From positions 1 through 37,728 of the forward strand of contig JAGKSX010000113.1 in the NCBI GenBank assembly GCA_018993155.1: a DNA stretch of 37,728 nucleotides. The letters run 5' to 3'. The position numbers and the translations under genes are program-made. The notes beneath the pieces are model-generated. The model did no database searches. It was not told the origin of the DNA and saw only the letters and a program-made list of their open reading frames with translations. This DNA is from Hydrogenophaga sp. GTDB taxonomy: Bacteria; Pseudomonadota; Gammaproteobacteria; Burkholderiales; Burkholderiaceae_C. Numbering within the stretch: position 1 is the stretch's first letter; each line of letters begins with the position of its first letter. Shown piece by piece: positions 7,948 through 22,566 of this stretch.

Positions 7948-9039
7948 ATGAGCCTCCAATGCGGCATCGTGGGCCTGCCCAACGTCGGCAAGTCCACCCT
8001 TTTCAACGCGCTGACCAAGGCCGGCATCGCGGCCGAGAACTACCCCTTCTGCACCATCGAGCCCAACACCGGTGTGGTGGAGGTGCCCGACCCGCGCCTG
8101 CAGCAGCTCGCCGAGATCGTCAAGCCCGAGCGCATCGTGCCGGCCATCGTGGAGTTCGTGGACATCGCCGGCCTCGTGGCGGGTGCAAGCACCGGTGAAG
8201 GCCTGGGCAACAAGTTCCTCGCGCACATCCGCGAGACCGACGCCATCGTCAATGTGGTGCGCTGCTTCGAAGACCCGAACGTGATCCACGTCGCCAACAA
8301 GGTCGACCCGATCGCCGACATCGAGGTCATCCAGACCGAGCTCTGCCTGGCCGATCTGGCCGCGGTGGAAAAGGCCCTGCACCGCGTGAGCAAGACCGCG
8401 CGCTCGGGCGACAAGGAGTCGATCAAGCAGGTCGCCATCCTCGAGAAGTGCCAGGCCGCGCTCAACGACACCCAGCCGGTGCGCACCATCGACTTCAGCA
8501 AGGAAGAGCAGGCGCAGCTCAAGCAGTTCTTCCTGATCACCGCCAAGCCGGCGATGTTCGTGGCCAACGTGTCGGAAGACGGCTTCGAGAACAACCCGCT
8601 GCTCGACCGCCTCAAGGAGTTTGCGCAGAAGCAGAACGCGCCCGTGGTCGCCATCTGCGCCAAGATCGAAGCCGAACTCTCCGAGATGGACGACGCCGAC
8701 CGCCTCGAATTCCTCAAGGAACTGGGGCAGGAGGAACCGGGCCTGAACCGCCTGATCCGCGCGGCCTACCAGCTGCTCGGTTTGCAGACCTACTTCACCG
8801 CCGGTGTGAAAGAGGTGCGCGCCTGGACCATCCACGTGGGCGACACCGGCCCGCAGGCCGCTGGCGTGATCCACACCGACTTCGAGAAGGGCTACATCCG
8901 CGCCCAGACCATCGGCTTCGACGACTACATCGCCTTCAAGGGCGAGCAGGGCGCGAAGGACGCGGGCAAGATGCGCGCCGAAGGCAAGGACTACGTCGTC
9001 AAGGACGGCGACGTGATGAACTTCCTGTTCAGCAGCTGA
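7948..9039 (+). CDS. ychF: Redox-regulated ATPase YchF
   Basis: Obg-family P-loop protein of 363 residues, full length. The G1 motif GLPNVGKST lies at about 9-17 and the G3-like segment [10 protein letters not shown] follows. The nucleotide-specificity motif is NVSE rather than NKxD, as expected for YchF, which prefers ATP over GTP. The C-terminal TGS domain includes [14 protein letters not shown]. YchF associates with ribosomes and in E. coli dampens the oxidative-stress response. The gene is monocistronic: LysR ends well upstream and a terminator follows. Confidence 0.97.
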
Positions 9040-9062: not shown

Positions 9063-9093
9063 ACCCACCCGGCGCAAGCCCGGTGGGTTTTTT
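9063..9093 (+). terminator. Intrinsic terminator after ychF
   Basis: An 11-base stem (ACCCACCCGGC at 9063-9073 with GCCCGGTGGGT at 9078-9088, one mismatch) encloses a GCAA tetraloop and runs directly into six T residues (9088-9093). It lies 24 bases after the ychF stop and separates it from the accessory operon. Confidence 0.9.
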
Positions 9094-9246: not shown

Positions 9247-10098
9247 ATGACAGCCCGAGTTGAAATCCTCGCATCCGCGCAGCGGGCGCTGCCCAAAATC
9301 GCCTTTCGCGGTGCCAGCAAGATCTATGGTGGCAGCGGCCGCGCCCGCAACCAGACCCTGGCCCTGGACAGCCTGGACCTGGACATCGCCCCGGCCGAAA
9401 TCGTGACCGTGCTCGGCCCCACGGGCTGCGGCAAATCGTCCACGCTGAACATGATCGCCGGCTTCGAGCAGCCCAGCACGGGCACGCTGACGCTGGACGG
9501 CCAGCGGATCGAAGGCCCCGGGCCGGACCGGGCCGTCGTGTTCCAGCAGCCCTCGCTCTTCCCCTGGCTCAACGTGTTCGACAACGTGACCCTGGGCGTG
9601 AAGTGCCGGGGCGTGCCGCGCGAGACCTATTCGGCGCGGGCGATGCACCTGCTGCGCGAGGTTGGCCTGACCGGCTTCGAGCGCCACTACCCCTACCAGC
9701 TCTCGGGTGGCATGCAGCAGCGTGTGCAGATCGCCCGCGCGCTGGTGTCCGAGCCCAAGGTGCTGTTGCTGGACGAGCCCTTCGGGGCGCTGGACTACCA
9801 GACCCGGATTCAGATGCAGGAATTGCTGCTGCGCCTGTGGCAGGAGTACCGCCCGACGATCTTTTTCATCACCCACGACGTCAGCGAAGCCATCTTCGTC
9901 GCCGACCGCGTGCTGGTGATGACGCGCCGCCCCGGCCGCGTGAAGCTGTCGGTGCGCGTCGAAGCCGACAAGCCGCGCACCGCCGATTTCCTGAGCACGC
10001 CGTACTTCATCGACCTGCAGCGCGAGCTGCTGCACGCCGTGCAGGAGGAAGTCCAGGCCAGCAAGCAGACCGCGCCACCGCAGGCCATGGCTGCCTGA
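9247..10098 (+). CDS. ABC transporter ATP-binding protein (SsuB/TauB-like)
   Basis: A 283-residue ATPase subunit of the nitrate/sulfonate/taurine importer class. Walker [10 protein letters not shown] is at about 57-65, the Q-loop lies in [17 protein letters not shown], the signature [15 protein letters not shown] starts near 152, Walker [13 protein letters not shown] is near 172, and the H-loop is in [10 protein letters not shown]. It powers uptake through the permease encoded two genes later. It is the first gene of a ten-gene operon and follows the operator-like palindromes. The receptor gene starts 41 bases later. The substrate cannot be read from the ATPase. Confidence 0.93.
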
Positions 10099-10139
10099 GC
10101 CTGCGTCGCACCGCCCCATCCACCCACGAGGAGACACCC

Positions 10140-11174
10140 ATGAGGACTTTCATCCGACAGCTTTTGGCCGCCGCGGCCTGTGCCTTCGCGGCGGGCACGG
10201 CCCCCGCCCAGACACCCGCCGCTCCGCTGAAATTCAAATGGGGCCTGCCATCGGCCGACTACTACGCGGTCTATGTCGCCAAGGACCACGGTCTGTTCAA
10301 GGAAGCGGGGCTGGACCCTGAGTTCTTCTTCTTTGCCTCGGGCGCACCGCTGCTGGCTGGCCTCAAGAGCGACAGCCTTGACGTGATCACCACCGGCCTG
10401 GCCACGGTCTTCGCGCTCGGCCAGAACATCCCGCTCAAGATGCTCTATTGGGAGCTCGACCACGCGGCCGCCGAGGCCCTGGTGGTCGACCCCAAGGCCG
10501 GCATCCACAGCGCCGAAGACCTGCCCAAGGCCAAGGCCATCGGCGCGCCCTCGGGCACTTGCGCCCAGGTCTCGCTGGTGCTGATGGCCCGCAAGCTGGG
10601 CACCAAGATGAGCGACCTCAGCGTGGTCAACATCGCCCCGCCGCTCTACGGCAACGCGTTCGCCAGCGGGGCGATCCAGGCCGGCATCGCGTGGTCACCG
10701 TTCTCCCAGTCGCTCTCGCAGCAGGGCTACAAGGTCGCCGGCTGGGCCACCGACTACACCCCGCACGGCGGCGTCTGCCCGGGCATGACGGCGGCGCGCC
10801 CCGCGTTTCTGGAGAAGAACCCGGACGCGGGTCTGCGCCTGGTGCAAGTCAAGGCCAAGGCCATGGACATGATCGCGAAGAACCCCAACCTGGCGATCGA
10901 CGCGCTGGTGAAGAACGTGGGCATCTCGCGCGAGGTGGCCAAGGCCGCCTACGAGCGCGAGTTCGCCCGCATCCCGAGTTTCGAGCAGCAGATCGACCCG
11001 AAGTCGCCGTTCTCCATGACCGCACCCGGCCAGGGGCTGGCGCTGAAGTTCCAGGTGGCCAGCGAAGCCCTGGCGGCGGCTGGCTCCATTCCCGCGCCGC
11101 TCTCGCCCAAGGTGATCGCCGATGCGATCGACCCCAGCCACCTGCAGCGCTACATGAGGGGTGAACGCAAATGA
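10140..11174 (+). CDS. ABC transporter substrate-binding protein (SsuA/NMT1-like)
   Basis: A 344-residue periplasmic receptor with a signal peptide (MRTFIRQLLAAAACAFAAGT, ending around APAQT). The mature part begins LKFKWGLPSADYYAVYVAKD, followed by HGLFKEAGLDPEFF, typical of the NMT1/THI5-like and SsuA-like fold that binds sulfonates, nitrate, pyrimidine precursors and aromatic acids. A good ribosome site (GAGGAG) precedes ATG 10140. It overlaps the permease gene by 4 bases (ATGA). It should define the specificity of the importer and therefore of the whole operon, but the ligand is not deducible by eye. Confidence 0.9.
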   Translation: MRTFIRQLLAAAACAFAAGTAPAQTPAAPLKFKWGLPSADYYAVYVAKDHGLFKEAGLDPEFFFFASGAPLLAGLKSDSLDVITTGLATVFALGQNIPLKMLYWELDHAAAEALVVDPKAGIHSAEDLPKAKAIGAPSGTCAQVSLVLMARKLGTKMSDLSVVNIAPPLYGNAFASGAIQAGIAWSPFSQSLSQQGYKVAGWATDYTPHGGVCPGMTAARPAFLEKNPDAGLRLVQVKAKAMDMIAKNPNLAIDALVKNVGISREVAKAAYEREFARIPSFEQQIDPKSPFSMTAPGQGLALKFQVASEALAAAGSIPAPLSPKVIADAIDPSHLQRYMRGERK

Positions 11175-12016
11175 GTATCCGCAACGCCTCCGCCGAAACC
11201 GGCGTGGAACACGCCGCACGCCAGCGCCACACCGGTCTGATGAAGATGCCTCGCACCATGCCCCTGGTTGTCTATTCCATCGCCGCCGTGCTCGGCCTGC
11301 TGCTGCTGTGGACCGCCGTCACGGTCTCCGGCCTGGTCGGCCCGGGCTACCTCCCCACGCCGCAGGGCATGGCCACCGAGTTCGCCGCGCTGCTGCAGGA
11401 CGGCTACAAGGGCAAGTCGCTGTGGGCCCACATCGAGGCCAGCCTGTTCCGCACCGTCGTCGGTTTCCTGATCGGTGTGGCGATCGGCATCCCGCTGGGC
11501 TTGCTCAGCGGCTACAGCAAGGTGGTCGGCGCGATGTTCTCGCCCATCATGGCCTTCGTGCGGCCCATCCCGCCGATCGCCTTCATTCCCATGGCCGTGC
11601 TGTACTTCGGCCTGGGCGAGACCGGCAAGATCGTGCTGATCCTGTTCACCGCCTTCAACTACGCGTTCGTCAACGCCCACGCCGGTGCCGCCGGTGTGCC
11701 GCTGGCCTACTTCCGCGCCGCGCAATCCATCGGCCTGAGCCGCTCGCAGACATTCTTCCGCGTCGTGCTGCCGGCCGCGGTGCCGCAGATCTTCACCGGC
11801 CTGAAGGTCGCCATGGCGCTGAGCTGGGCGGTGGTCGTGGCCGCCGAACTGGTGGGTGCGCAGGCCGGCCTCGGTTTCATGATCTCGGACGCGGCGCAGC
11901 TCTTCCGCATTCCGGTCGTCTTCATCGGTATCGCCCTCATCGGCGTGATCGGCCTGGTCCTCAACGCGCTGCTCACCGGCGCCGAAGACAAGCTCGTGCA
12001 CTGGAAGGGACGCTGA
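11171..12016 (+). CDS. ABC transporter permease (SsuC/TauC-like)
   Basis: A 281-residue inner-membrane permease of the BPD_transp_1 type with about six membrane segments, starting with VVYSIAAVLGLLLLWTAVTV. The coupling-helix (EAA-like) region is AAQSIGLSRSQTFFRVVLPA, which contacts the ATPase. Its start codon overlaps the receptor stop (ATGA), so translation is coupled. The aldehyde dehydrogenase gene starts 4 bases after its end, binding transport and metabolism into one unit. Confidence 0.92.
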   Translation: MSIRNASAETGVEHAARQRHTGLMKMPRTMPLVVYSIAAVLGLLLLWTAVTVSGLVGPGYLPTPQGMATEFAALLQDGYKGKSLWAHIEASLFRTVVGFLIGVAIGIPLGLLSGYSKVVGAMFSPIMAFVRPIPPIAFIPMAVLYFGLGETGKIVLILFTAFNYAFVNAHAGAAGVPLAYFRAAQSIGLSRSQTFFRVVLPAAVPQIFTGLKVAMALSWAVVVAAELVGAQAGLGFMISDAAQLFRIPVVFIGIALIGVIGLVLNALLTGAEDKLVHWKGR

Positions 12017-12020
12017 AGCC

Positions 12021-13478
12021 ATGAGCACCGTGCACTCCTACCTGTCTTCGCTCTCGCTGCACATCGCGGGCGAGTGGCGCGGCATCAGCGGCCGCGACAC
12101 CCTGCCGGTCATCAACCCGGCCACCGGTGCCGAGCTCGGCCGTCTGCCCATGGCCACCGAGCGCGATATCGACGACGCTCTGGCCGCCGCGCAGGCTGCC
12201 TTCCCCGCGTGGTCGCAGGCCAGCGCATGGGAGCGCGATCGCATCCTCCAGCGCGCCGCGGTCCTGATCCACGAACGGCGCGATGCCATCGCGCACAGCC
12301 TCACGCTGGAGAATGGCAAGCCACTGGCGGACGCGCAGGGCGAGATCGACCGCGTGATCGAAACCATCACCTGGTGCGCCGAAGAAGGCAAGCGGGCCTA
12401 CGGCCGCGTGCTGCCCCCGCGTTCGCACCGCCTGACGCAGACCACGCTCAAGCGCGCCATCGGGCCGGTGGCCGCCTTCGTGCCCTGGAACTTTCCCATG
12501 GTGCTGGCGGCGCGCAAGGTCGCCGCGGCGCTGGCCGCCGGTTGCACCGTGGTGCTCAAGCCCGCCGAAGAAACCCCGGCCAGCTGCATCGAACTCGTGC
12601 GCGCCTTCCTGGACGCGGGCTTGCCCCCGGGCGCGCTGAGCCTGCTGTTCGGCGTGCCGGCACAGGTCTCGCAGCGCCTGATCGCATCGCCCGTCATCCG
12701 CAAGATCTCGTTCACCGGTTCGGTTGCGGTCGGTCGGCTGCTCGCCACCCAGGCGGCCCAGCAACTCAAGCCGGCCACCATGGAGCTGGGTGGCCATGCC
12801 CCGGTCGTGGTGTTCGACGACGTCGATGTCGACAAGGTTGCCGCCGCCTGTGCCGCCTTCAAGTTCCGCAACGCGGGCCAGGTCTGCCTCTCGCCCAGCC
12901 GCTTCTACGTGCACGACAGCATCGCCGAGCGTTTCGCCCAGCGGCTCGCGGCGCACGCCCAGGCCTTGCAGGTCGGCGACGGCCTCACACCCGGCGTGCA
13001 GATGGGGCCTCTGAACAACGAGCGGCGCCTGCAGGCCGCGCAAGCCCTGGTGGACGATGCCCGCGCCGCCGGCGCCCGCGTGCTCACCGGTGGGCAGCGC
13101 ATCGGCACCCAGGGCTTCTTCTTCCAGCCAACCGTGCTCACGCAATTGCCCGCCTCGGCCCGGTTGCTGAAGGAAGAGCCGTTCTGCCCGGTGGCACCTG
13201 TCATGTCCTTCGCCACGCTGGACGAGGTCATCGCCCTGGCCAACGACAGCGACATGGGCCTGGCCGCCTACGCCTTCACCAACCGGCTGGACCGCGCGGC
13301 GGAGTTCTCCGAGCGCGTCGAGGCCGGCTGGATCGGCATCAACAGCTTCACCCCCGCGCTGGCCGATGCCCCCATCGCCGGCATGAAGGACAGCGGCCTC
13401 GGCATGGAAGGCGGACCCGAAGGGCTGGATGCCTACCTGCACAGCCGCTTCGTCAGCCAGTCCAGCCTCGCGACCTGA
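12021..13478 (+). CDS. NAD(P)-dependent aldehyde dehydrogenase (GabD-like)
   Basis: Aldehyde dehydrogenase superfamily member of 485 residues, closest in style to succinate-semialdehyde dehydrogenases. The catalytic general-base Glu lies in MELGGHAP (about E255) and the nucleophile Cys in GQVCLSPS (about C289). The cofactor region has PWNFPMVLAARKVAAALAAG and SFTGSVAVG. The usual C-terminal motif is present in altered form (GMKDSGLGMEGGPEGLDAYL). It oxidises an aldehyde to a carboxylate, and here most likely takes the product of the GMC dehydrogenase encoded six genes downstream (inference from the shared operon). The substrate range of this family is broad, so GABA metabolism is not implied. 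Confidence 0.92.
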   Translation: MSTVHSYLSSLSLHIAGEWRGISGRDTLPVINPATGAELGRLPMATERDIDDALAAAQAAFPAWSQASAWERDRILQRAAVLIHERRDAIAHSLTLENGKPLADAQGEIDRVIETITWCAEEGKRAYGRVLPPRSHRLTQTTLKRAIGPVAAFVPWNFPMVLAARKVAAALAAGCTVVLKPAEETPASCIELVRAFLDAGLPPGALSLLFGVPAQVSQRLIASPVIRKISFTGSVAVGRLLATQAAQQLKPATMELGGHAPVVVFDDVDVDKVAAACAAFKFRNAGQVCLSPSRFYVHDSIAERFAQRLAAHAQALQVGDGLTPGVQMGPLNNERRLQAAQALVDDARAAGARVLTGGQRIGTQGFFFQPTVLTQLPASARLLKEEPFCPVAPVMSFATLDEVIALANDSDMGLAAYAFTNRLDRAAEFSERVEAGWIGINSFTPALADAPIAGMKDSGLGMEGGPEGLDAYLHSRFVSQSSLAT

Positions 13479-13521
13479 CGCCCCCCAAATTCACACGAAC
13501 CGCATCCAGGAGACCCACGCC

Positions 13522-14937
13522 ATGACCACCGACAACGTGCACCCGCTTCGCTTCTCGGGCTACAAGAACCGCGACATCCCGGGGCCGGACACCGAACTCA
13601 CCAGCACCGACCCGGGCACGCCCATGGGCGAATACATGCGCCGCTTCTGGCAGCCCGTGTGCCTGTCCGAGGAACTCAAGGACCTGCCCAAGGCGATCCG
13701 CATCATGGGCGAGAACCTGGTGGCCTTCCGCTCCAAGCGCGGCGAGATCGGTGTCATGCACCGCCACTGCGCGCACCGCGGTGCGTCGCTGGAGTACGGC
13801 ATCATCACCCACGACGGCATCCGCTGCTGCTACCACGGCTGGTCCTACCGCATCGACGGCACCCTCATCGAGGCGCCCTGCGAGCACGACGACACCCGCC
13901 TGAAACAGACGGTCTGCCAGGGTGCCTACCCGGCGTTCGAGCGCAACGGCCTGGTGTTCGCCTACATGGGCCCGCCCGACCAGCAGCCGCCGTTCCCCGA
14001 GTTCGACAGCTACACCTTTCCCGGCGACAACAAGCTGGTGGCGTTCTCGAACATCTACCCCTGCAACTGGCTGCAGGTGTACGAGAACATCATGGACCAC
14101 ATGCACACGGCCGTGCTGCACAACAAGATGGTCGCCGAAGGCGTGGACGACAGCACTGCCGCCGGGCTCTCGCTCGAAGGCTTTGGCGACATGCCCGTGA
14201 TGCAGTGGGAAGCCACGCGCAGCGGCAACGGCTGCGTGTTCGTCGCCGGCCGGCGCCTGCCTGGCAACAAGGTGTGGCTGCGCATCACCGAGATGGTGTT
14301 CCCCAACTACCTGCAGATCGGCTCGCTGTTGCCCACCGCCGCGCGCGAGCGCCACGGCAACTCCGGTTGCACCCGCTGGAACGTGCCCATCGACGACCAC
14401 CACATGATGATCCTCGGCTACCGCCACTTCAACAGCACGGTGGACCCCGACGGCATGGGCAGCGAGGCCGATTGCGGCGTCGACAAGATCGACTTCCTGG
14501 ACGGGCAGACCGGCAACCGCAGCTACGAGGAAGGCCAGCGCGCTCCTGGCGACTGGGAGGCCATCGTCAGCCAGCGCAAGGTGGCCATCCACGGCTCGGA
14601 GCACCCGGGTTCGTCCGACGTCGGCGTGTACCTGTGCCGCCGCCTGCTGCGCGACCTCCTGCGTGGCAAGACCCAGCCCGACCCGCTGTACGAAGAGCTG
14701 GTGGCAAAGGGCCGCACCTTGCCCCTGTATTCGCAGGACAGCGTGCTCGACATCCCCGAGCTGCCGGCCGCCGAGGACCGCAAGCAGATCCTCGCTCTGG
14801 GCAAGAAGCTCATGGAGATCAACCGCGCTGCCGATGGCCAGGCCGATGCCGCTGCGCGCGATGCGTACATCCGCCGCGAGCTCGATCGCCTCGATGGCCG
14901 GGCCGTGGTGATCGAGAACACCCCCGAGACCGTCTGA
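13522..14937 (+). CDS. Rieske non-heme iron oxygenase, large subunit
   Basis: A 471-residue ring-hydroxylating or O-demethylating oxygenase of the phthalate dioxygenase/vanillate demethylase type. The Rieske [2Fe-2S] ligands are C83-x-H85 (HCAHRGASLEYG) and C102-x2-H105 (CCYHGW). The mononuclear iron site is in ENIMDHMHTAVLH, with H195 and H200 as ligands and D192 as the electron-bridging Asp. EYMRRFWQPV at the N terminus is typical of homomultimeric oxygenases without a beta subunit. It is somewhat longer than phthalate 4,5-dioxygenase (~440). The start is ATG 13522 with CAGGAG upstream. The next gene encodes the matching reductase. Whether it hydroxylates, demethylates or removes sulfonate cannot be told from sequence. 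Confidence 0.93.
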   Translation: MTTDNVHPLRFSGYKNRDIPGPDTELTSTDPGTPMGEYMRRFWQPVCLSEELKDLPKAIRIMGENLVAFRSKRGEIGVMHRHCAHRGASLEYGIITHDGIRCCYHGWSYRIDGTLIEAPCEHDDTRLKQTVCQGAYPAFERNGLVFAYMGPPDQQPPFPEFDSYTFPGDNKLVAFSNIYPCNWLQVYENIMDHMHTAVLHNKMVAEGVDDSTAAGLSLEGFGDMPVMQWEATRSGNGCVFVAGRRLPGNKVWLRITEMVFPNYLQIGSLLPTAARERHGNSGCTRWNVPIDDHHMMILGYRHFNSTVDPDGMGSEADCGVDKIDFLDGQTGNRSYEEGQRAPGDWEAIVSQRKVAIHGSEHPGSSDVGVYLCRRLLRDLLRGKTQPDPLYEELVAKGRTLPLYSQDSVLDIPELPAAEDRKQILALGKKLMEINRAADGQADAAARDAYIRRELDRLDGRAVVIENTPETV

Positions 14938-14960
14938 GCACGGGCACACGGAAGACCACG

Positions 14961-15911
14961 ATGAAACTGCGCGTCCGCTCTGTGACCTGGGAAGCCGAGG
15001 GCATCCTCTCGTTCGAACTCGTGCACCCCGAAGGCCTGCCGCTGCCGGTCTTCGAGGCCGGCGCGCACATCGACGTCCGCATCCCCGGCGGCCTGTCGCG
15101 CCGCTACTCGCTGTGCAACACGCCGGGCGAGCGCACGCACTACCGCATCGCGGTGCTGCGTGTGCCCGAAAGCCGGGGCGGCTCGCGGGCCATGCACGAG
15201 CGCGTGCATGCCGGCGATTTCATCGAGGCCTCCGAGCCGCGCAATTTCTTCCCGCTCGACGACAGCGCCGGCCACGCCCTGCTGCTGGCCGGGGGCATCG
15301 GCGTCACACCCTTGCTGGCCATGGTGGAGCGGCTGCAGGCCAGCGGTCGCCCGTTCGCCATGCACTACTGCACCACATCGCCCGAACGCACGGCCTTTGC
15401 CGGGCGCCTCCAGCCGCTGGCGGCGCAGGGCATCGTCACCCACCACCACGACCGGGGCGACCCGCGCAACGGCCTGGACATTGCCCGGCTGCTGCGCGAC
15501 CCCGCGCCGGGCACCCACCTCTACTACTGCGGGCCGGCCGGCTTCATGAAAGCCGTGAAGGCCGCCTCGGCGCACTGGCCCGCCGGCACCGTGCACTTCG
15601 AGTACTTCGGTGCCGAACCGCAGGCCGCCCCCGTGAACGTGGGCGCCTGCGCCGACACCGTGCCGGTGCACCTGCTGCGCTCCGGACGCACCGTGCAAGT
15701 CTCGCCCGTGCAGACCCTGCTGCAGGCGCTGCGCGACGCCGGCGTGGAGTGCGAAAGCTCGTGCGAGGCCGGCGTGTGCGGCACCTGCCGGGTGGACTAC
15801 AGCGAGGGCGAGCCCGAGCACAACGACCTGATCCTCAACGAGGAAGAGCGTGCCCGCAGCGTGTTGCTCTGTTGCGGGCGCGCTCGCACACCGCTGAGCC
15901 TGGATCTCTGA
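14961..15911 (+). CDS. Oxygenase reductase, phthalate dioxygenase reductase family
   Basis: A 316-residue electron-transfer protein that passes NAD(P)H electrons to the Rieske oxygenase. Domain order is flavin-binding barrel (RRYSLCNTPGERTHYRIAV), nucleotide-binding domain (LLAGGIGVTPLLAMV, then YYCGPAGFMKAV) and C-terminal plant-type [2Fe-2S] ferredoxin with Cys268, Cys273, Cys276 and a fourth Cys at 304 or 305 (CEAGVCGTC, later LLCCGR). This is the phthalate dioxygenase reductase/VanB layout, normally FMN-dependent. It begins 23 bases after the oxygenase gene, and the two form a complete two-component system needing no separate ferredoxin. Confidence 0.94.
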   Translation: MKLRVRSVTWEAEGILSFELVHPEGLPLPVFEAGAHIDVRIPGGLSRRYSLCNTPGERTHYRIAVLRVPESRGGSRAMHERVHAGDFIEASEPRNFFPLDDSAGHALLLAGGIGVTPLLAMVERLQASGRPFAMHYCTTSPERTAFAGRLQPLAAQGIVTHHHDRGDPRNGLDIARLLRDPAPGTHLYYCGPAGFMKAVKAASAHWPAGTVHFEYFGAEPQAAPVNVGACADTVPVHLLRSGRTVQVSPVQTLLQALRDAGVECESSCEAGVCGTCRVDYSEGEPEHNDLILNEEERARSVLLCCGRARTPLSLDL

Positions 15912-15955
15912 CGAGCTCAGCCCATCACAACGACCCCGAAGGTGAGGAACCTGCC

Positions 15956-16741
15956 ATGAACAACGCCGCCGTGAACGCCGCCCAGAACGTGTTCCAGGTG
16001 CTCCAGATGCCCGACCGCAGCGGCCGCCCGAAGTACCAGCGACTGGCCGACGTGCTGGTCGAAGCCATCCGCCAGGGCATCTGGCGCCCCGGCGACCGAC
16101 TGCCACCGGAAGAGGAACTTACCCAGCTCACCCCCTTCAGCCTGGGCACGGTGCAGCGCGCGCTGCGCGATCTGTCGGAGCAAGGCCTGGTGGTGCGCCA
16201 GCACGGCCTGGGCAGCTTCGTCGCCGACCCACCGCGCGAACTGCAGGACCCCTGGCATTGCCGCTTCGTCAACGACGAGGGCGAGGTGCTGCCCATCTAT
16301 TCGCAGGCCATCGCCCGTGTGAGCGTGTTCGAACGCGGCCCCTGGAGCACCTACCTTGGCCCGCAGGCCGACGTGATCCGCGTCGACCGCGTGATCATCG
16401 TCAACGACGAGTTCCGCATCTTCAGCCGCTTCTACGGCGACCGCAAGGTGCTCAAACGCCTGTGGGAAATGCCCATGGACGAACTCAACGGCGCCAACTT
16501 CAAGAAGGTCATCGTGCGGCAATGCCGCCTGCCGATCACCGAGGTGACGCACTTCGTGCGCATGCAGCCCTACGATGACGAGGCCTGCATCCGCATGGGC
16601 CTGGCCGCGGGCACCAGCGGCATGTTCATGTACGCCGTGGCCTTTGCCGGCAAGGAGCGCTGCGTGTACTACCAGGAGTTCTCCGTCGCCCCCAACGCGC
16701 ACTCGCTCAAGTTCCCGGAAACCACGGTGTCCTCGGTTTGA
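15956..16741 (+). CDS. GntR family regulator, HutC subfamily (UTRA domain)
   Basis: A 261-residue regulator. A GntR winged helix-turn-helix spans about residues 25-95 (IWRPGDRLPPEEELTQL, SLGTVQRALRDLSEQGLVV, HGLGSFVADPP). A UTRA-like effector domain fills the rest (VIRVDRVIIVND, YYQEFSVAP). HutC-type proteins are usually repressors released by a pathway intermediate. The gene sits in the middle of the operon, after the oxygenase reductase and before the sulfatase, so it may autoregulate. The palindromes at 9121-9209 are the best candidate operators. A good ribosome site (GGTGAGGAA) precedes ATG 15956. Confidence 0.88.
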   Translation: MNNAAVNAAQNVFQVLQMPDRSGRPKYQRLADVLVEAIRQGIWRPGDRLPPEEELTQLTPFSLGTVQRALRDLSEQGLVVRQHGLGSFVADPPRELQDPWHCRFVNDEGEVLPIYSQAIARVSVFERGPWSTYLGPQADVIRVDRVIIVNDEFRIFSRFYGDRKVLKRLWEMPMDELNGANFKKVIVRQCRLPITEVTHFVRMQPYDDEACIRMGLAAGTSGMFMYAVAFAGKERCVYYQEFSVAPNAHSLKFPETTVSSV

Positions 16742-16784
16742 CCGAGCACACCGCCCCCTCATTGACCACCCAATGGAAACACCC

Positions 16785-18242
16785 ATGAAAACCTCTCCCA
16801 AGAACCTTCTGGTCATCATGTCCGACGAGCACTCGCCCAAGGCCCTGGGCTGTTACGGCAGCGAGATCGTGAAGACCCCGAACCTCGACGGGCTGGCCGC
16901 GCGCGGCACGCGTTTCTCGTCGGCCTACTGCGCCAGCCCCGTGTGCATCCCGGCGCGCGCGTCCTTTGCCGTGGGCAAGTACATCCACCAGATCGGCTAC
17001 TGGGACAACGCCGACGCCTACGACGGGGCGATCCCCAGCTGGCACCACAAGCTGCGTGACCGGGGGCACGACGTGGTGTCCATCGGCAAGCTGCACTTCC
17101 GCACGCCCGAGGAAGACCATGGCTTCAGCTCCGAGGTGATCCCCATGCACATCATCGAGGGCAAGGGCGACCTCATGGGTCTGGTGCGCAGCGAGCTGCC
17201 GGTGCGCAAGGGCGCCTACAAGATGGCGCATTACGCCGGCCCCGGTGAGAGCCAGTACACCTTCTACGACCGCGAGATCACCGCCCGTGCCCAGGTCTGG
17301 CTGCGCGAAGCCGCGAAGCGCGAGGCCGACAAACCCTGGGTGCTGTTCGTCTCGCTCGTGGCGCCGCACTTTCCGCTCACCGCGCCGCCGGAGCACTACT
17401 ACCCCTACTACAACCAGAACCTGCCCATGCCCAAGCTGTACGAGCAGCACGAACGGCCCACGCACCCCTACCTGGTGGACTACGCACGCAGCTTCAACTA
17501 CGACGACTACTTCAGCCGCGACGCCGTCAAGCGCGCCATCGCCGGCTACTACGGCCTGTGCAGCTTCCTTGACGAAAACATCGGCAAGATCCTGCGCACG
17601 CTGGAAGACGCGGGCCTGGCTGACGACACGCGCGTGATGTACACCTCCGACCACGGCGACAACATGGGCGCGCGCGGCCTGTGGGGAAAGTCCACCATGT
17701 TCGAGGAAACCGCCGGCGTGCCGCTCATCATCGCGGGCGACGGCATTGCCCAAGGCCAGTCGGTGGCCACGCCGGTCAGCCACGTGGACGTGTACCCCTT
17801 CATCCTGGATGCCGTGGGCAACCAGGAAACGGCCCTGCGCGAAGGCTTCCCGGGCACCACCCTCTTCGACCTGGCCGATGGGGAAGTGCCCGACCGCAAC
17901 GTGCTGGTGGAATACCACGGCATGGGCTCCACCACTGGCGCCCTCATGATCCGCCACGGTCGCTACAAGTACGTGCACTACATCGGCTACCCGGCCCAGC
18001 TGTTCGATCTGGAGACCGACCCGGAGGAACTCAGCGACCTCGCCGCGAACGCCAGGTACGCCAGCGTGCTCGACGAATGCCGCGAGCGTCTCTTGCGCAT
18101 CTGCGACCCTGATGAGGTCGACCAGCGTGCGAAGCAGCGCCAGGCCGAACTGCTGGCGCAGAACGGGGGGCGTGAAGCGGTCATTGCCCGTGGCGACCTG
18201 GGCTTCACACCGGCACCCGGTGCCGTCATTGCCTTCGACTGA
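16785..18242 (+). CDS. Cytoplasmic type I sulfatase-like hydrolase
   Basis: A 485-residue alkaline-phosphatase-superfamily sulfatase. The formylglycine motif C-x-P-x-R is CIPAR with Cys54 as the residue to be converted. Metal-site segments are the N-terminal MSDEH and SDHGDNMGARGLWGKSTMFE in the C-terminal half. No signal peptide is visible, so it should act in the cytoplasm on imported substrate. Expected reaction: hydrolysis of a sulfate ester to alcohol plus sulfate; phosphonate monoester hydrolase activity is an alternative in this superfamily. An in-frame ATG at 16773 is possible, but GGAAA lies just before ATG 16785. The alcohol-oxidising GMC gene follows 17 bases later. Confidence 0.88.
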   Translation: MKTSPKNLLVIMSDEHSPKALGCYGSEIVKTPNLDGLAARGTRFSSAYCASPVCIPARASFAVGKYIHQIGYWDNADAYDGAIPSWHHKLRDRGHDVVSIGKLHFRTPEEDHGFSSEVIPMHIIEGKGDLMGLVRSELPVRKGAYKMAHYAGPGESQYTFYDREITARAQVWLREAAKREADKPWVLFVSLVAPHFPLTAPPEHYYPYYNQNLPMPKLYEQHERPTHPYLVDYARSFNYDDYFSRDAVKRAIAGYYGLCSFLDENIGKILRTLEDAGLADDTRVMYTSDHGDNMGARGLWGKSTMFEETAGVPLIIAGDGIAQGQSVATPVSHVDVYPFILDAVGNQETALREGFPGTTLFDLADGEVPDRNVLVEYHGMGSTTGALMIRHGRYKYVHYIGYPAQLFDLETDPEELSDLAANARYASVLDECRERLLRICDPDEVDQRAKQRQAELLAQNGGREAVIARGDLGFTPAPGAVIAFD

Positions 18243-18259
18243 ACCTCGCCGGACATGCC

Positions 18260-19900
18260 ATGAACCAAGAAGACCACTATGACTACATCGTCGTCGGCGC
18301 CGGTTCGGCCGGTGCCGCGCTCGCCACGCGCCTGGCCGAGCGGCAGGCGGGCCGGGTGCTGCTTGTCGAAGCCGGCGCCTCGCGCGAACGCGACTTCTGG
18401 GTGCGAGCCCCCATCGGCATCGCCAAGGTGGTCGGTGACCCGCGCTACGTCTGGCAGTTCCGAACGCAGGAACAGCAGGCCCTGGTCGGCCAGTCGGTCT
18501 ATTGGCCGCGCGGCCGCATGCTGGGGGGCAGCAGCGGGGTGAACGGCACGATCTACGTGCGCGGCGAAGCCGAGGAGTACGACCACTGGCGCGGCCAGGG
18601 CTGCGCTGGCTGGGGCTACCGCGAACTGCTGCCGTACTTCAAGCGCCTGGAAAACACCACGCTAGGCGACCCCGTGTGCCGGGGCCGCGAAGGCCCGGTG
18701 ACCATCAGCTCGCTCGGGGCAATGCCCGACGCCTTGTCGGATGCCTTCCACGCCGCCTGCGTCTCGGCCGGCATCCCTGCCAACGAGGACTACAACGGCC
18801 GCCAGTACGAAGGCGTGGGTTACCTGCAGCTCAACACCCGCCACGGTCAGCGCTGCGACACCGCCACCGCCTACCTGCGCGGCCGCCCCGCCAGCAACCT
18901 GCGCGTGGCCACCGAGATCCAGGTCACGCGGGTGCTGTTCGAAGGCACGCGCGCCGTGGGCATCGAATACCTGCGCGAGGGCGTTCGCGGCATCGCGAAA
19001 GCCGCGCGCGAGGTCATCCTTTCGGCCGGCCCGATCAAGTCGCCGCAGTTGCTCGAGCTCTCGGGCATCGGCCAAGGCGAGCGCCTGCAGGCCATGGGCA
19101 TCCCTGTCGTGAGCGACCTGCCGGGCGTCGGCGAAAACCTGATCGACCACGTGCAGACCCGCGTCACCTTCGAGGCCAACCGGCCGCTCGGCCTGAACCA
19201 GGTCGTGGGCCACCCGTGGCGGCAGACCCTGCTGGGTCTGCGCTACCTCACCACCCGCAAAGGCCTCATGGCCACGCCGGCCTTCACCATCCATGCGCTG
19301 GCGCGCACCGAGCGCGACCGCCGCCTGGGCCGCCAGCGGCCGAGCGTGAAGATCCAGCTCGCCCAGCTCAGCGGCAACACCCGCTTCGAGATGACCACCG
19401 GCGGCACGCCCGGCGCCATGCTCGACCCGTACCCCGGCTTCTCGATCGGCTGCTTCCAGCTGCGCCCGCAATCGCGCGGCCAGGTGCATCTGGCCAGCCC
19501 CGACGCCCTGGCCGATCCCCACATCGACCCGCGCTACCTCGCCGAACGCGAAGATCAGGAAGACGTGGTGGCCTCGGTGCGGCTGGCGCGCGAGGTCGCG
19601 GCGCAAGGCGCACTGGCCAGCTTCATCGTGCGCGAGACCCGGCCCAGCGCCCAGGCGCGCACCGACGAGGAACTGCTCGACTACGTCAAGCAGTCCGCCG
19701 CCACCTCGTTCCACCCGGTGGGCACCTGCCGCATGGGCGTCGACGACCTCGCCGTGGTCGATCCTCAGCTTCGCGTGCGAGGTGTGCAGGCGCTGCGGGT
19801 GATCGACTCGTCGATCATGCCGACCATGCCTGCGTCCAACACCAACGCGCCCTCGATCATGATCGGGGAAAAGGGCGCGGACCTCGTGCTGCAGCGCTGA
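18260..19900 (+). CDS. GMC family oxidoreductase (choline dehydrogenase-like)
   Basis: A 546-residue FAD-dependent alcohol dehydrogenase/oxidase. The dinucleotide motif YDYIVVGAGSAGAALATRLA opens the protein. The GMC signature lies in GRMLGGSSGVNGTIYVRG and a second in GPIKSPQLLELSGIG. The catalytic His is H485 in SFHPVGTCRMG, and an Asn around 527-529 (SNTNAPSIMIGEKGAD) completes the pair. It oxidises a primary alcohol to an aldehyde, passing electrons to oxygen or a quinone. Its product is the natural substrate of the aldehyde dehydrogenase of this operon, and its own substrate may be the alcohol released by the sulfatase (inference). Confidence 0.93.
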   Translation: MNQEDHYDYIVVGAGSAGAALATRLAERQAGRVLLVEAGASRERDFWVRAPIGIAKVVGDPRYVWQFRTQEQQALVGQSVYWPRGRMLGGSSGVNGTIYVRGEAEEYDHWRGQGCAGWGYRELLPYFKRLENTTLGDPVCRGREGPVTISSLGAMPDALSDAFHAACVSAGIPANEDYNGRQYEGVGYLQLNTRHGQRCDTATAYLRGRPASNLRVATEIQVTRVLFEGTRAVGIEYLREGVRGIAKAAREVILSAGPIKSPQLLELSGIGQGERLQAMGIPVVSDLPGVGENLIDHVQTRVTFEANRPLGLNQVVGHPWRQTLLGLRYLTTRKGLMATPAFTIHALARTERDRRLGRQRPSVKIQLAQLSGNTRFEMTTGGTPGAMLDPYPGFSIGCFQLRPQSRGQVHLASPDALADPHIDPRYLAEREDQEDVVASVRLAREVAAQGALASFIVRETRPSAQARTDEELLDYVKQSAATSFHPVGTCRMGVDDLAVVDPQLRVRGVQALRVIDSSIMPTMPASNTNAPSIMIGEKGADLVLQR

Positions 19901-19904
19901 ACGC

Positions 19905-20708
19905 GTGGACACGCTTGCCGCACTCGCGGCCTCCCTCTGGCCCGGTCCCGCCTGGGTGCTGGGTCTGGCCGTCGCCATCTCGTTCGGCGCGGGCGTGGTG
20001 CGGGGCTTCTCGGGCTTCGGCTACTCGGCGCTCGTCGTGGCAGGCCTGTCGCCCTTCGTCCTGCCCGGTCCGCTGGTGGTCGCGGTGCTGATGCTGGAAG
20101 TGGTCGCCTCCGCGGGCAGCGTGCGCCAGGTGTTGCCCGACGTGCACCGCGGCTGGCATCGCTCGCTGCTGACGGGCAACCTGCTGTTCGTGCCGGTGGG
20201 GCTGGCCGGCCTGGCCTGGCTGGACCCGGCCGTGGTCCGCGTGCTGCTCAGCGCCCTGGTGCTCGTGGGCGCCACCAGTGTGCGCTTCACGCTGGGGCAC
20301 CGGCTGGCGCCCACGCCTGGGCTGCGCCACCTTGCCGGCGTGAGTTCGGGCCTGCTCAACGGCTTCGCGGCTTCGGGTGGCATCGTGGCCGCGCTGCTCA
20401 TGACCGCCAGCGGCCTGCATCCCCGGCTGCTGCGCGCCACCATGATCAGCGTGCTGCTCTGGATCAGCGCCTACGCCCTGGTGTGGAGCGGGCTTGCCGC
20501 CTGGGCGGGCGAGCCGTCGCTGCTGGGCGCGCAGGCCGTGGGCTGGGCCTTGCTGCTCTGGCCCACCATGGCGCTGGGCATGCGCATGGGCAGCCGCGCC
20601 TTCGTCCACGCCAGGGCGGACCGGCAGGCCATGCTCGTGCTCGACACGCTGATCGTGGTGGCCCTCGGCGCCCTGGTCACGGCCTGGGTGCGCTTGCCCG
20701 CGCCCTGA
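19905..20708 (+). CDS. TauE/SafE family membrane transporter
   Basis: A 267-residue integral membrane protein with about eight hydrophobic segments, starting at GTG 19905, 4 bases after the GMC stop. GVVRGFSGFGYSALVVAGL and the repeat-like VSSGLLNGFAASGGIVAALL are the two inverted TauE/SafE signature regions. Characterised relatives export sulfite, sulfoacetate or other anions. As last gene of the operon it may discard a sulfur-containing or organic-acid product. The hypothetical gene beyond it is convergent, 11 bases away. Confidence 0.85.
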   Translation: MDTLAALAASLWPGPAWVLGLAVAISFGAGVVRGFSGFGYSALVVAGLSPFVLPGPLVVAVLMLEVVASAGSVRQVLPDVHRGWHRSLLTGNLLFVPVGLAGLAWLDPAVVRVLLSALVLVGATSVRFTLGHRLAPTPGLRHLAGVSSGLLNGFAASGGIVAALLMTASGLHPRLLRATMISVLLWISAYALVWSGLAAWAGEPSLLGAQAVGWALLLWPTMALGMRMGSRAFVHARADRQAMLVLDTLIVVALGALVTAWVRLPAP

Positions 20709-21274: not shown

Positions 21275-21312
21275 TGTGTGGTTGAGTGATCGCATACCAA
21301 GGGATCTCATCC

Positions 21313-21793
21313 ATGCAACAGGAAAACACCGTGTTCACCCGCCCGCTCCGTCTGGGGCTGCTCGTCGATGCCGAAAGCTTCAGCGGTGCGCACGCGCCGC
21401 GCATGCTCACGCGGGTCAAGCAACTGGGCCGGCCCATCATCCGCCGTGCTTATGGCGACTGGACCACTTCGCAGCTCGCGCTGTGGAAGGGGGCGCTGCA
21501 CACTCTGGCCATCCGCCCCTGCCAGCAGTTCCACTACCGCCATGGCCGCAACGCCTCCGACGCCGCGCTCATCATGGACGCCATGGAGATGCTGCATGAA
21601 CGGCGCGTGGATGGCCTGTGCCTTGCCTCTACCGACAGCGATTTCACCGGCCTGGCCGCGCGCTACCAGGAGGCCGGCCTCCTGGTCTTCGGCTTTGGCA
21701 CGAGCAACGCCGCCGCACCCTTCAAAGAAAGCGGCGTGCGATGCGTTCTTCTGTCTGGACACACCCGAAGAGCGCGTAGAGTCGGCGCAATGA
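21313..21793 (+). pseudogene. NYN domain (LabA/PIN-like) protein gene, frameshifted
   Basis: An NYN-domain putative ribonuclease. LRLGLLVDAESFSGAH, RRAYGDWTTSQLALWKGALH, HGRNASDAALIMDAMEML and ASTDSDFTGLAARYQEAG follow the family order and keep the acidic residues. The conserved end (normally like F-x-x-A-C-x-x-F-x-x-L-E) is lost in the starting frame after residue ~138 but continues in the +1 frame as ACDAFFCLDTPEERVESAQ, ending in TGA at 21791-21793 that overlaps the next ATG. AAAG is tandemly duplicated at 21724-21731; removing one copy restores FKAACDAFFCLD. Start ATG 21313 has AAGGGA upstream. It may be a true mutation, an assembly error or, less likely, programmed frameshifting. Confidence 0.7.
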
Positions 21794-22566
21794 CCGAAGC
21801 ATCGACCCGACCCGAACCCCAGCGCCTGGCCAAACGCCTGGCGGCACAAATTTCCTGCTCGCGCCGCGACGCCGAGCTCTACATCGCGGGCGGCTGGGTG
21901 CGGGTCGATGGCGCCGTGGTGGAAGAACCCATGGCGCGCGTGCGCGACGAGCAGGCCGTGGTGCTCGATTCCCAGGCTCGGCTGGAGCCGCTGGTGCCGG
22001 TCACGCTGGTCTGGCACAAGCCTGCGGGCCAGGCCTTGCCTGAAGAGCCTTTCCTGCCCGATGAAATCGCCGTGCGGTGGTTTGCATCAGGTGCGCGCTC
22101 CCAGGGCGACCGCTCGGGCGTGCGCCCACTCAAGGCGCATGGCCACAAGCTGCTGCCGGTCTCGCCTCTGGAGGTGCTCGCCAGCGGCCTGATGGTGTTC
22201 ACGCAGAACCCGGGCGTGGCGCGCAAGATCACCGATGCCTCCTCGCCGCTGGAACACGAGTGGCTGGTGGAGGTGCAGGACGATCCCGAACTCGACGACG
22301 GCGCGCGGCGCGAGGCGGTGCTGCAGTCCCTGGGCAAGGCGCTGTTCTTCGACGGCTGGGCGGTGCCCGCAGCGCGCGCGAGCTGGCAGAGCGAGCGGCG
22401 CCTGAGGCTGGCGATCAAGGGCACGCTGCCGGGGCAGGTGGCGCACCTAGCCGAGCGCGCCGGCCTGCGCCTGGCCTCGGTGCGGCGCCAGCGCCTGGGC
22501 CGCATCGGCCTGGACGGCCTGCCTTCAGGCCAGTGGCGCTACCTCGCCGCGCACGAGCGTTTCTGA
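21790..22566 (+). CDS. S4-domain pseudouridine synthase homologue (RluB/RluF-like), catalytic Asp missing
   Basis: A 258-residue protein with an N-terminal S4 RNA-binding domain (QRLAKRLAAQISCSRRDAEL, then YIAGGWVRVDG) followed by an RsuA/RluF-like synthase fold. At the position of the usual catalytic RLD motif the protein has VSPLEVLASGLMVFTQ: Glu128 replaces Asp and Pro126 replaces Arg. Activity is therefore doubtful and it may be an RNA-binding relative. Its ATG overlaps the shifted-frame stop of the NYN gene (ATGA), which suggests ancestral translational coupling. Because of the frameshift it is now also in frame with the NYN start, giving a 417-residue fusion reading frame. Its 3' end overlaps the convergent MFS gene by 28 bases. 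Confidence 0.8.
   Translation: MTEASTRPEPQRLAKRLAAQISCSRRDAELYIAGGWVRVDGAVVEEPMARVRDEQAVVLDSQARLEPLVPVTLVWHKPAGQALPEEPFLPDEIAVRWFASGARSQGDRSGVRPLKAHGHKLLPVSPLEVLASGLMVFTQNPGVARKITDASSPLEHEWLVEVQDDPELDDGARREAVLQSLGKALFFDGWAVPAARASWQSERRLRLAIKGTLPGQVAHLAERAGLRLASVRRQRLGRIGLDGLPSGQWRYLAAHERF

Follow-up and report, generated by a model that had tools for sequence, protein, structure and literature searches.

The forward strand of the window, by which we mean the whole stretch of 37,728 nucleotides analysed here (contig JAGKSX010000113.1 of the Hydrogenophaga sp. assembly GCA_018993155.1), carries between positions 9247 and 20708 an operon of ten genes encoding a sulfonate-type ABC importer, an aldehyde dehydrogenase, a Rieske oxygenase with its reductase, a GntR-family regulator, a sulfatase, a GMC alcohol dehydrogenase and a TauE-family exporter. 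With moderate confidence we assign this operon to the catabolism of a short alkyl sulfate in which a methyl group is located next to the sulfate-bearing carbon, propan-2-yl (isopropyl) sulfate being our best guess. In the proposed pathway the alkyl sulfate ester would enter the cell via the importer, and the Rieske oxygenase, which resembles MdpJ, would hydroxylate together with its reductase the methyl group of the intact ester. The GMC enzyme would oxidise the resulting sulfooxy-alcohol to the aldehyde and the aldehyde dehydrogenase would convert the latter to the acid, lactate 2-sulfate, from which the cytoplasmic formylglycine sulfatase would finally liberate D-lactate and sulfate. TauE would export the released sulfur anion, the GntR protein would regulate the pathway genes and D-lactate would be converted to pyruvate by a D-2-hydroxyacid oxidase, which is encoded within about half of the related clusters and presumably elsewhere in the genome of the window's host. 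Substrate, order of steps, stereochemistry and the direction of transport by TauE are what we infer from the findings described below. These findings support the view, already put forward in an original prediction made from the DNA letters, that import, a sulfate ester, GMC and aldehyde dehydrogenase, Rieske oxygenase plus reductase and sulfur-anion export are parts of one catabolic route.

The Rieske protein was scanned against 84,980 species genomes, whereby only genomes containing one of six short peptide patterns could be found, so that the 62 loci obtained represent an undercount. These loci (numbered L001 and upwards) fall into two identity groups, 21 of them at 62-78% and 41 at 57% or below. 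Within the fetched region of about 10 kb on each side of the Rieske gene, aldehyde dehydrogenase, reductase, GMC and GntR genes are each present in all 21 loci of the close group, some of which are near-copies of one another (L010/L011, L002/L003, L004/L005, L009/L012/L016), and the sulfatase is present in 20 of the 21. The exception, L019, possesses a sulfatase of 72% identity on a different contig. None of the 41 distant loci, many of which are short contigs, contains the sulfatase. The core gene set, which occurs in Diaphorobacter, Hydrogenophaga, Achromobacter, Cupriavidus, Paraburkholderia, Caballeronia, Azospirillum and Pseudomonas, is conserved beyond chance, and the co-conservation implied by the original prediction is herewith borne out. 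Of a sample of 299 genomes from the window's family, 11 contain the sulfatase (E up to 1e-150) and ten the Rieske protein (E up to 1e-120), both being present in five, which include the window's own genome and provide two further clusters (L091 and L093). Together with the 20 sulfatase-bearing close loci, these constitute the 22 other clusters referred to below. Since the three genomes of the same genus within the family sample harbour neither sulfatase nor Rieske protein, the operon is patchily spread. In Pseudomonas, the genus of L047, three of 298 genomes contain the sulfatase, in each case together with the core cluster; they apparently correspond to those of L012, L013 and L016.

The Rieske non-haem iron oxygenase (13522-14937, PF00355), in which the motifs C83-x-H-x16-C-x2-H and D192-x2-H-x4-H are present, shares 58.5% identity across 84% of its length (55% in a second alignment) with a Rieske protein encoded on the plasmid of Methylibium petroleiphilum PM1 (L068). 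We assigned the latter, MPE_RS22205, to Mpe_B0555 by gene order, as it lies beside a reductase gene and near mutase genes, and not by a printed cross-reference. The PM1 gene table of PMC4517660 lists Mpe_B0555 as tert-butyl alcohol (TBA) hydroxylase. In a tree of 56 rows one clade of 30 rows, with a support of 99/98, unites all sulfatase-linked Rieske proteins with L019, the MdpJ group and three further proteins; within it the sulfatase-linked proteins fall into several subgroups. A single clade of the 23 sulfatase-linked rows plus L019 apart from MdpJ is not displayed by the tree and is not rejected either (p 0.54). Judged by its sequence, the window Rieske protein is of the MdpJ kind, i.e. 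a member of the TBA hydroxylase clade. As a separate observation, the PM1 TBA hydroxylase itself is placed within the clade of the sulfatase-linked proteins, which bears on the origin of MdpJ. According to one study, by its title, MdpJ is said to form diols from secondary alcohols as well. According to PMC7176365, TBA is converted to 2-methylpropane-1,2-diol, from which alcohol and aldehyde dehydrogenases produce 2-hydroxyisobutyrate, so that the TBA route, too, arrives at a 2-hydroxyacid. The model of glycine betaine monooxygenase GbcA (NF058607) is matched with just 26.6 bits at a cutoff of 670.

The nature of the product is suggested by D-2-hydroxyacid oxidases, which are encoded in eight of the 22 clusters as fetched and in 11 of the 22 after extension of six of them (L001, L012, L013, L016, L091 and L093; the controls were taken as fetched). 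Dld is found in L002 (941 bits) and L029 (911 bits, cutoff 391) and, via 96% identity, in L003. Five clusters (L004, L005, L008, L091 and L093) contain GlcD, each accompanied by GlcE (for L091 it resides in the extension, L127), and GlcF scores above its cutoff once L091 and L093 are extended. In the extended Pseudomonas loci L012, L013 and L016 a protein of 934-959 residues with GlcD-like FAD domains is encoded beside a gene of the major facilitator superfamily (MFS); one of the three shows a weak match to an iron-sulfur subunit, and their size is that of the pseudomonad D-lactate dehydrogenase. No match to Dld, GlcD or GlcE (E up to 1e-8) was obtained in the 41 distant Rieske loci or in L019, nor was any oxidase found, at a stricter setting, in 30 control loci drawn from these 41 or their kin, which amount to 466 kb compared with 452 kb for the 22 clusters. 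Because distinct enzyme families would thus serve one and the same D-2-hydroxyacid step across the clusters, a D-2-hydroxyacid is suggested as the product of the pathway.

The sulfatase (16785-18242; Pfam Sulfatase 7.6e-43) is a class I enzyme of the formylglycine, Cys-type class with the C-x-P-x-R motif present as CIPAR at position 54, and its closest relatives of solved structure are choline sulfatases. The choline sulfatase (BetC) model TIGR03417 is matched over its positions 3-454 of 500 with 316.5 bits, the cutoff of 433 being missed. In all 21 operon sulfatases compared (the window and 20 loci) the equivalents of Cys54, His201 and Lys309 of the Sinorhizobium meliloti choline sulfatase (SmCS) are retained, and Glu386 of that enzyme is replaced by Met. 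In choline sulfatase Glu386 has been linked to recognition of the choline nitrogen (PMC5870055). By eye, no signal peptide is discernible. The window's own genome encodes a protein of the formylglycine-generating enzyme (FGE) family (PF03781, 202 bits, cutoff 23.3), a family which also holds other enzymes; we infer that this protein activates the sulfatase. Charged residues which are invariant in 23 operon sulfatases and missing in SmCS (e.g. H16, H122, H378, R135 and R371) had been considered as carboxylate contacts. This idea was dropped as they also occur in the distant relatives L097 and L070 and may mark the subfamily.

Information on the substrate of the sulfatase comes from 15 loci with an orthologous sulfatase (56-72% identical) and no Rieske gene in view; the genomes of four of them (L105-L108) hold a related Rieske gene on another contig. 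A TctC-type receptor gene adjoins the sulfatase gene in nine (L095, L096, L105, L110, L111, L112, L114, L115 and L116) and is located at a distance of up to 2.5 kb in L113 and L118, the match in L118 being weak (33%), which adds up to 11 of 15. In L106, L107, L108 and L117 no such receptor gene came into view, the contig of L106 ending just past the sulfatase gene. TctC-type receptors usually bind carboxylates. Since the Rieske-less sulfatase loci thus mostly carry carboxylate-type receptors, an acid sulfate is suggested as the substrate, and we regard the enzyme as a candidate 2-hydroxyacid-2-sulfate (D-lactate-2-sulfate) sulfatase. In L113 a D-isomer-specific 2-hydroxyacid dehydrogenase is encoded just upstream of the sulfatase. 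Two further observations concern the surroundings of this sulfatase family. A ComA-like (phosphosulfolactate synthase) protein is encoded beside sulfatase relatives in L113 (3185-4000, by Pfam) and L108 (10382-11200, by similarity to that of L113); the gene in L113 is accompanied by those of a D-2-hydroxyacid dehydrogenase and of a further sulfatase, and the ComA-linked loci possibly represent a different route for a three-carbon acid sulfate. The large and swivel subunits of aconitase X (AcnX) are encoded near sulfatases of the family, with or without a Rieske gene (left flank of L010, L011 and L020; L110, 12857-14592; L116, 5115-6775), and we know of no role for aconitase X in this context.

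The membership of the Rieske protein in the MdpJ kind, which attacks methyl groups next to an oxygen-bearing carbon, and the company of the sulfatase, which consists of D-2-hydroxyacid oxidases and, at loci lacking the Rieske gene, mostly of carboxylate-type receptors, together suggest that the intact ester is oxidised first and desulfated last. The same observations render the order of the original prediction, desulfation at the beginning and the Rieske reaction at the end, less likely. In a route that begins with desulfation, as the original prediction has it, the sulfatase would set free a short secondary or tertiary alcohol such as 2-propanol, which the Rieske oxygenase would transform in the manner of MdpJ to the 1,2-diol and the GMC enzyme and aldehyde dehydrogenase further to the 2-hydroxyacid. 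We consider this unlikely. Going by paper titles, the kin of MdpJ use free alcohols, and the end product would be identical, so that the D-2-hydroxyacid oxidases would be accounted for equally well. However, 2-propanol is normally converted to acetone by ordinary dehydrogenases, and the frequency of carboxylate-type receptors at Rieske-less sulfatase loci (11 of 15) speaks for an acid sulfate as the substrate of the sulfatase.

Several points weigh against late desulfation of an oxidised propan-2-yl sulfate and against D-lactate as its product. MdpJ acts on free alcohols, and to our knowledge no Rieske oxygenase hydroxylates an intact alkyl sulfate. The window operon itself lacks a D-2-hydroxyacid oxidase, and its genome contains no Dld above cutoff, only other FAD-oxidase_C proteins. 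No oxidase is in view in 11 of the 22 clusters, of which L001 alone was extended, still without yielding one. The three GlcD proteins that were scored all remain below the GlcD cutoffs (478-520 of 568 and 711-792 of 897 bits). The link between sulfatase and Rieske oxygenase is one-sided, being loose as seen from the sulfatase: in a sample of 399 genomes of the order the sulfatase (E up to 1e-190) occurs in 11 and the Rieske protein (E up to 1e-150) in two, those of the window and of L019, and members of the sulfatase family are also found outside operons of this kind. In view of the AcnX and ComA genes near the sulfatase in L110, L113 and L116, this family may serve several acid sulfates. Finally, GlcDEF would also suit glycolate, which makes ethyl sulfate a possible substrate.

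The last point leads to other chain lengths on the same route, with ethyl sulfate yielding glycolate or 2-butyl sulfate yielding 2-hydroxybutyrate and with preferences that differ from cluster to cluster. The distribution of GlcDE(F) over five clusters and of Dld over three, as well as the presence of several Rieske subgroups, would fit such a diversity, but both Dld and enzymes of the GlcDEF kind reportedly accept D-lactate, so that one substrate explains both, and we judge a spread of chain lengths to be improbable. Considerably less probable still is an aromatic methyl sulfate or sulfonate, e.g. p-cresyl sulfate, undergoing TsaM-like side-chain oxidation and late desulfation. A Rieske oxygenase accompanied by alcohol and aldehyde dehydrogenases is reportedly also encountered in TsaMBCD, but in the present clusters D-2-hydroxyacid oxidases recur instead, and the Rieske protein groups with the TBA hydroxylase. 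The sulfated aromatic or aryl-alkyl alcohol favoured by the original prediction finds no support, although no systematic search was made for ring-cleavage genes; the one protein of this type that was met, in L127, matches a 4,5-DOPA dioxygenase model. The choline-O-sulfate route, with a BetC-like sulfatase, BetA-like GMC enzyme, BetB-like aldehyde dehydrogenase and GbcA-like Rieske oxygenase, was rejected as very improbable: the sulfatase and GMC proteins do have the choline sulfatase and choline dehydrogenase models as their nearest, and solved choline sulfatases are nearest to the sulfatase, but all curated cutoffs are missed (sulfatase 316.5 of 433 bits, GMC against betA 442 of 732, aldehyde dehydrogenase against betaine aldehyde dehydrogenase 369 of 669, Rieske against GbcA 27 of 670) and Glu386 is exchanged for Met in 21 of 21 sulfatases, so that the mismatch with BetC/BetA/BetB already noted in the original prediction is confirmed by cutoffs and active site alike.

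Outside the core the clusters vary, above all in transport. A complete ABC importer is confined to the window, L091 and L093 among the 23 clusters; L010, L011 and L020 contain importer ATPase and binding protein, and no matching permease was found in them. As all three genes occur together in just three of 23 clusters, we rejected the importer as a defining part of the operon, and the fixed place which the original prediction had given it does not hold. An MFS carrier, whose nearest model is a galactonate transporter at a score below cutoff, is encoded in 14 of the 22 clusters, and OprD porins in all six Pseudomonas loci. L007 contains a component of a tripartite ATP-independent periplasmic (TRAP) transporter (DctM), the same family being present in L014, L019 and L023. 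TauE-family exporters are found in 11 of the 22 clusters and belong, counting that of the window, to four sequence families: the window type in L023 and L091, the others in L001 and L029, in L003 and in the six Pseudomonas loci. L023, which stems from Hydrogenophaga borbori LA-38, also shares the core set with the window. In L008 a SulP-family permease gene is situated between the sulfatase and GlcDE genes. Small membrane proteins of the DUF202 family recur, in some loci as pairs (L001, 16446-16799; L009, 15781-16548; L029, 5877-6547; others). In Escherichia coli yidG and yidH adjoin the sulfatase gene yidJ, and a participation of DUF202 proteins in sulfate export appears worth testing. The GMC enzyme is of two types, that of the window shared with L023 (81%) and L091 (73%) and another, at 41-45%, present in most other clusters and encoded there at a different position; the step is apparently retained despite the switch of type.

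The layout of the operon agrees with the original prediction, which was exact in counting ten genes on one strand with gaps from -4 to +44 bases; the ten open reading frames of the plus strand follow one another at 41, -4, 4, 43, 23, 44, 43, 17 and 4 bases. The importer comprises an ATPase of the TauB/SsuB type (9247-10098; Pfam ABC_tran, NCBIfam taurine ABC ATPase 256 bits at a cutoff of 357), a periplasmic binding protein of the NMT1/SsuA family (10140-11174; NMT1 3e-12, SsuA_fam TIGR01728 115 bits at a cutoff of 163.5) and a permease of the TauC type (11171-12016; BPD_transp_1, TauC model 190 bits at a cutoff of 342). The N-terminus of the binding protein resembles, by eye, a signal peptide, and the taurine and sulfonate binding proteins of solved structure are only its distant relatives. 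With the curated TauABC/SsuABC cutoffs missed by all three subunits, the importer is, as far as such scores can tell, a member of the same superfamily on a separate branch. It is followed by the NAD(P) aldehyde dehydrogenase (12021-13478; Aldedh 9e-158, succinate-semialdehyde dehydrogenase subfamily 476 bits at a cutoff of 646). Downstream of the Rieske gene lie the reductase gene, encoding a flavin/NAD domain and a plant-type 2Fe-2S domain (14961-15911; Fer2, NAD_binding_1), and the gntR gene (15956-16741; GntR 2.9e-16, the UTRA match being under its cutoff), whose product is probably a substrate-responsive regulator of the operon. The sulfatase gene is succeeded by those of the GMC flavin alcohol dehydrogenase (18260-19900; GMC_oxred_N/C, choline dehydrogenase subfamily 533 bits at a cutoff of 605) and the TauE/SafE-family exporter, which starts with GTG (19905-20708; TauE 3.8e-10). 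The gene families named in the original prediction are thus right according to Pfam and NCBIfam; its heading correctly listed importer, Rieske oxygenase, sulfatase, dehydrogenases and exporter and left out the seventh gene, the GntR regulator. Among the matches listed (the best 25 for the ATPase and the aldehyde dehydrogenase) no NCBIfam model reaches its cutoff for any of the ten proteins, and because importer, aldehyde dehydrogenase, GMC enzyme and sulfatase score well under the cutoffs of the named models, annotation names should not be equated with functions.

The ten genes are one operon, as originally predicted, and a single transcript is likely, since a consensus scan places a terminator-like site immediately 5' of the operon (9076-9090), the sole other such site on the plus strand of the scanned stretch lies within the binding protein gene (10306-10320), and the four sites in total are fewer than the mean of 5.7 in shuffled sequences. 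A sigma-70 promoter scan of the stretch found no site, a result that carries little information. The upstream border is formed by a gene which, by eye, encodes a YchF-like housekeeping GTPase (7948-9039). Beyond the operon a single open frame (21286-22566) appears, again by eye, to combine an NYN/LabA-type domain with an S4-type, pseudouridine-synthase-like domain downstream of it, either as a fusion or as two merged genes.

A literature search, in which papers were judged on title and the start of the abstract and subscription papers mostly lay outside the scope, returned no paper describing this operon. Among the closest known systems is that of Pseudomonas syringae GG, which reportedly degrades propan-2-yl sulfate with oxidation preceding desulfation and D-lactate as end product, and whose D-lactate-2-sulphatase (EC 3.1.6.17) is said to have been purified by Crescenzi, Dodgson and White in 1984. 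Short alkyl sulfate, order of events, D-lactate-2-sulfatase and D-lactate correspond to our proposal; the difference is that the enzyme comes without a gene sequence and hence does not permit comparison by homology. Its sequence was, as of 2018, 'never determined' (PMC5870055), and a 2007 survey ranks EC 3.1.6.17 as a validated orphan good for salvage (PMC1940265). The operon and its relatives therewith provide a testable candidate for D-lactate-2-sulfatase and for the whole pathway. Somewhat more tentatively than the substrate assignment, we suggest that they offer the first gene-level picture of the P. syringae GG alkyl sulfate route, that the sulfatase represents the family of orphan EC 3.1.6.17, that the Rieske oxygenase is the first of its class to hydroxylate the methyl group of an intact sulfate ester, and that MdpJ, the MTBE/TBA enzyme, is accordingly closely related to an organosulfate oxygenase. 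If true, this would indicate the nearest kin of the oxygenase of TBA and methyl tert-butyl ether (MTBE) degradation, extend the substrate range of Rieske oxygenases to a sulfate ester and establish a link between TauE exporters and sulfatases.

With the TBA/MTBE pathway of strain PM1 the operon shares a homologous Rieske oxygenase and reductase (MdpJ/MdpK, Mpe_B0555/B0554) and the conversion, in three steps, of a methyl group beside an oxygen-bearing carbon to the acid, there completed by 2-methyl-1,2-propanediol dehydrogenase and hydroxyisobutyraldehyde dehydrogenase. In contrast to the operon, the whole PM1 plasmid record contains no relative of the sulfatase (E up to 1e-40), and the product, 2-hydroxyisobutyrate, is handed to a B12 mutase instead of a D-2-hydroxyacid oxidase. 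BetC/BetA/BetB have in common with it the GMC and aldehyde dehydrogenase superfamilies and a class I sulfatase with Cys54, His201 and Lys309 (S. meliloti choline sulfatase, 6fny), whereas Met in place of Glu386, scores below cutoff, the additional Rieske oxygenase and the lack of any sign of a quaternary ammonium substrate set the operon apart. For the slf operon of Psychrobacter plasmid pP62BP1 (PMC3346939, as far as its accessible text goes) a sulfatase, a GMC enzyme and an aldehyde dehydrogenase were likewise proposed to act on alkyl sulfates, yet there a secreted alkyl sulfatase of a different kind acts first, dodecyl sulfate is the proposed substrate, a Rieske oxygenase is absent and a CoA ligase forms the end. 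In the acesulfame cluster of Shinella (PMC11500405), too, a TauE/SafE exporter is encoded next to a formylglycine sulfatase, for which choline sulfatase is a distant relative; this cluster differs in possessing an amidase and no oxidative route, the sections at hand naming no Rieske oxygenase, GMC enzyme or aldehyde dehydrogenase. Measured against these systems, the operon is a gene-level variant of known chemistry and not a new kind of system.

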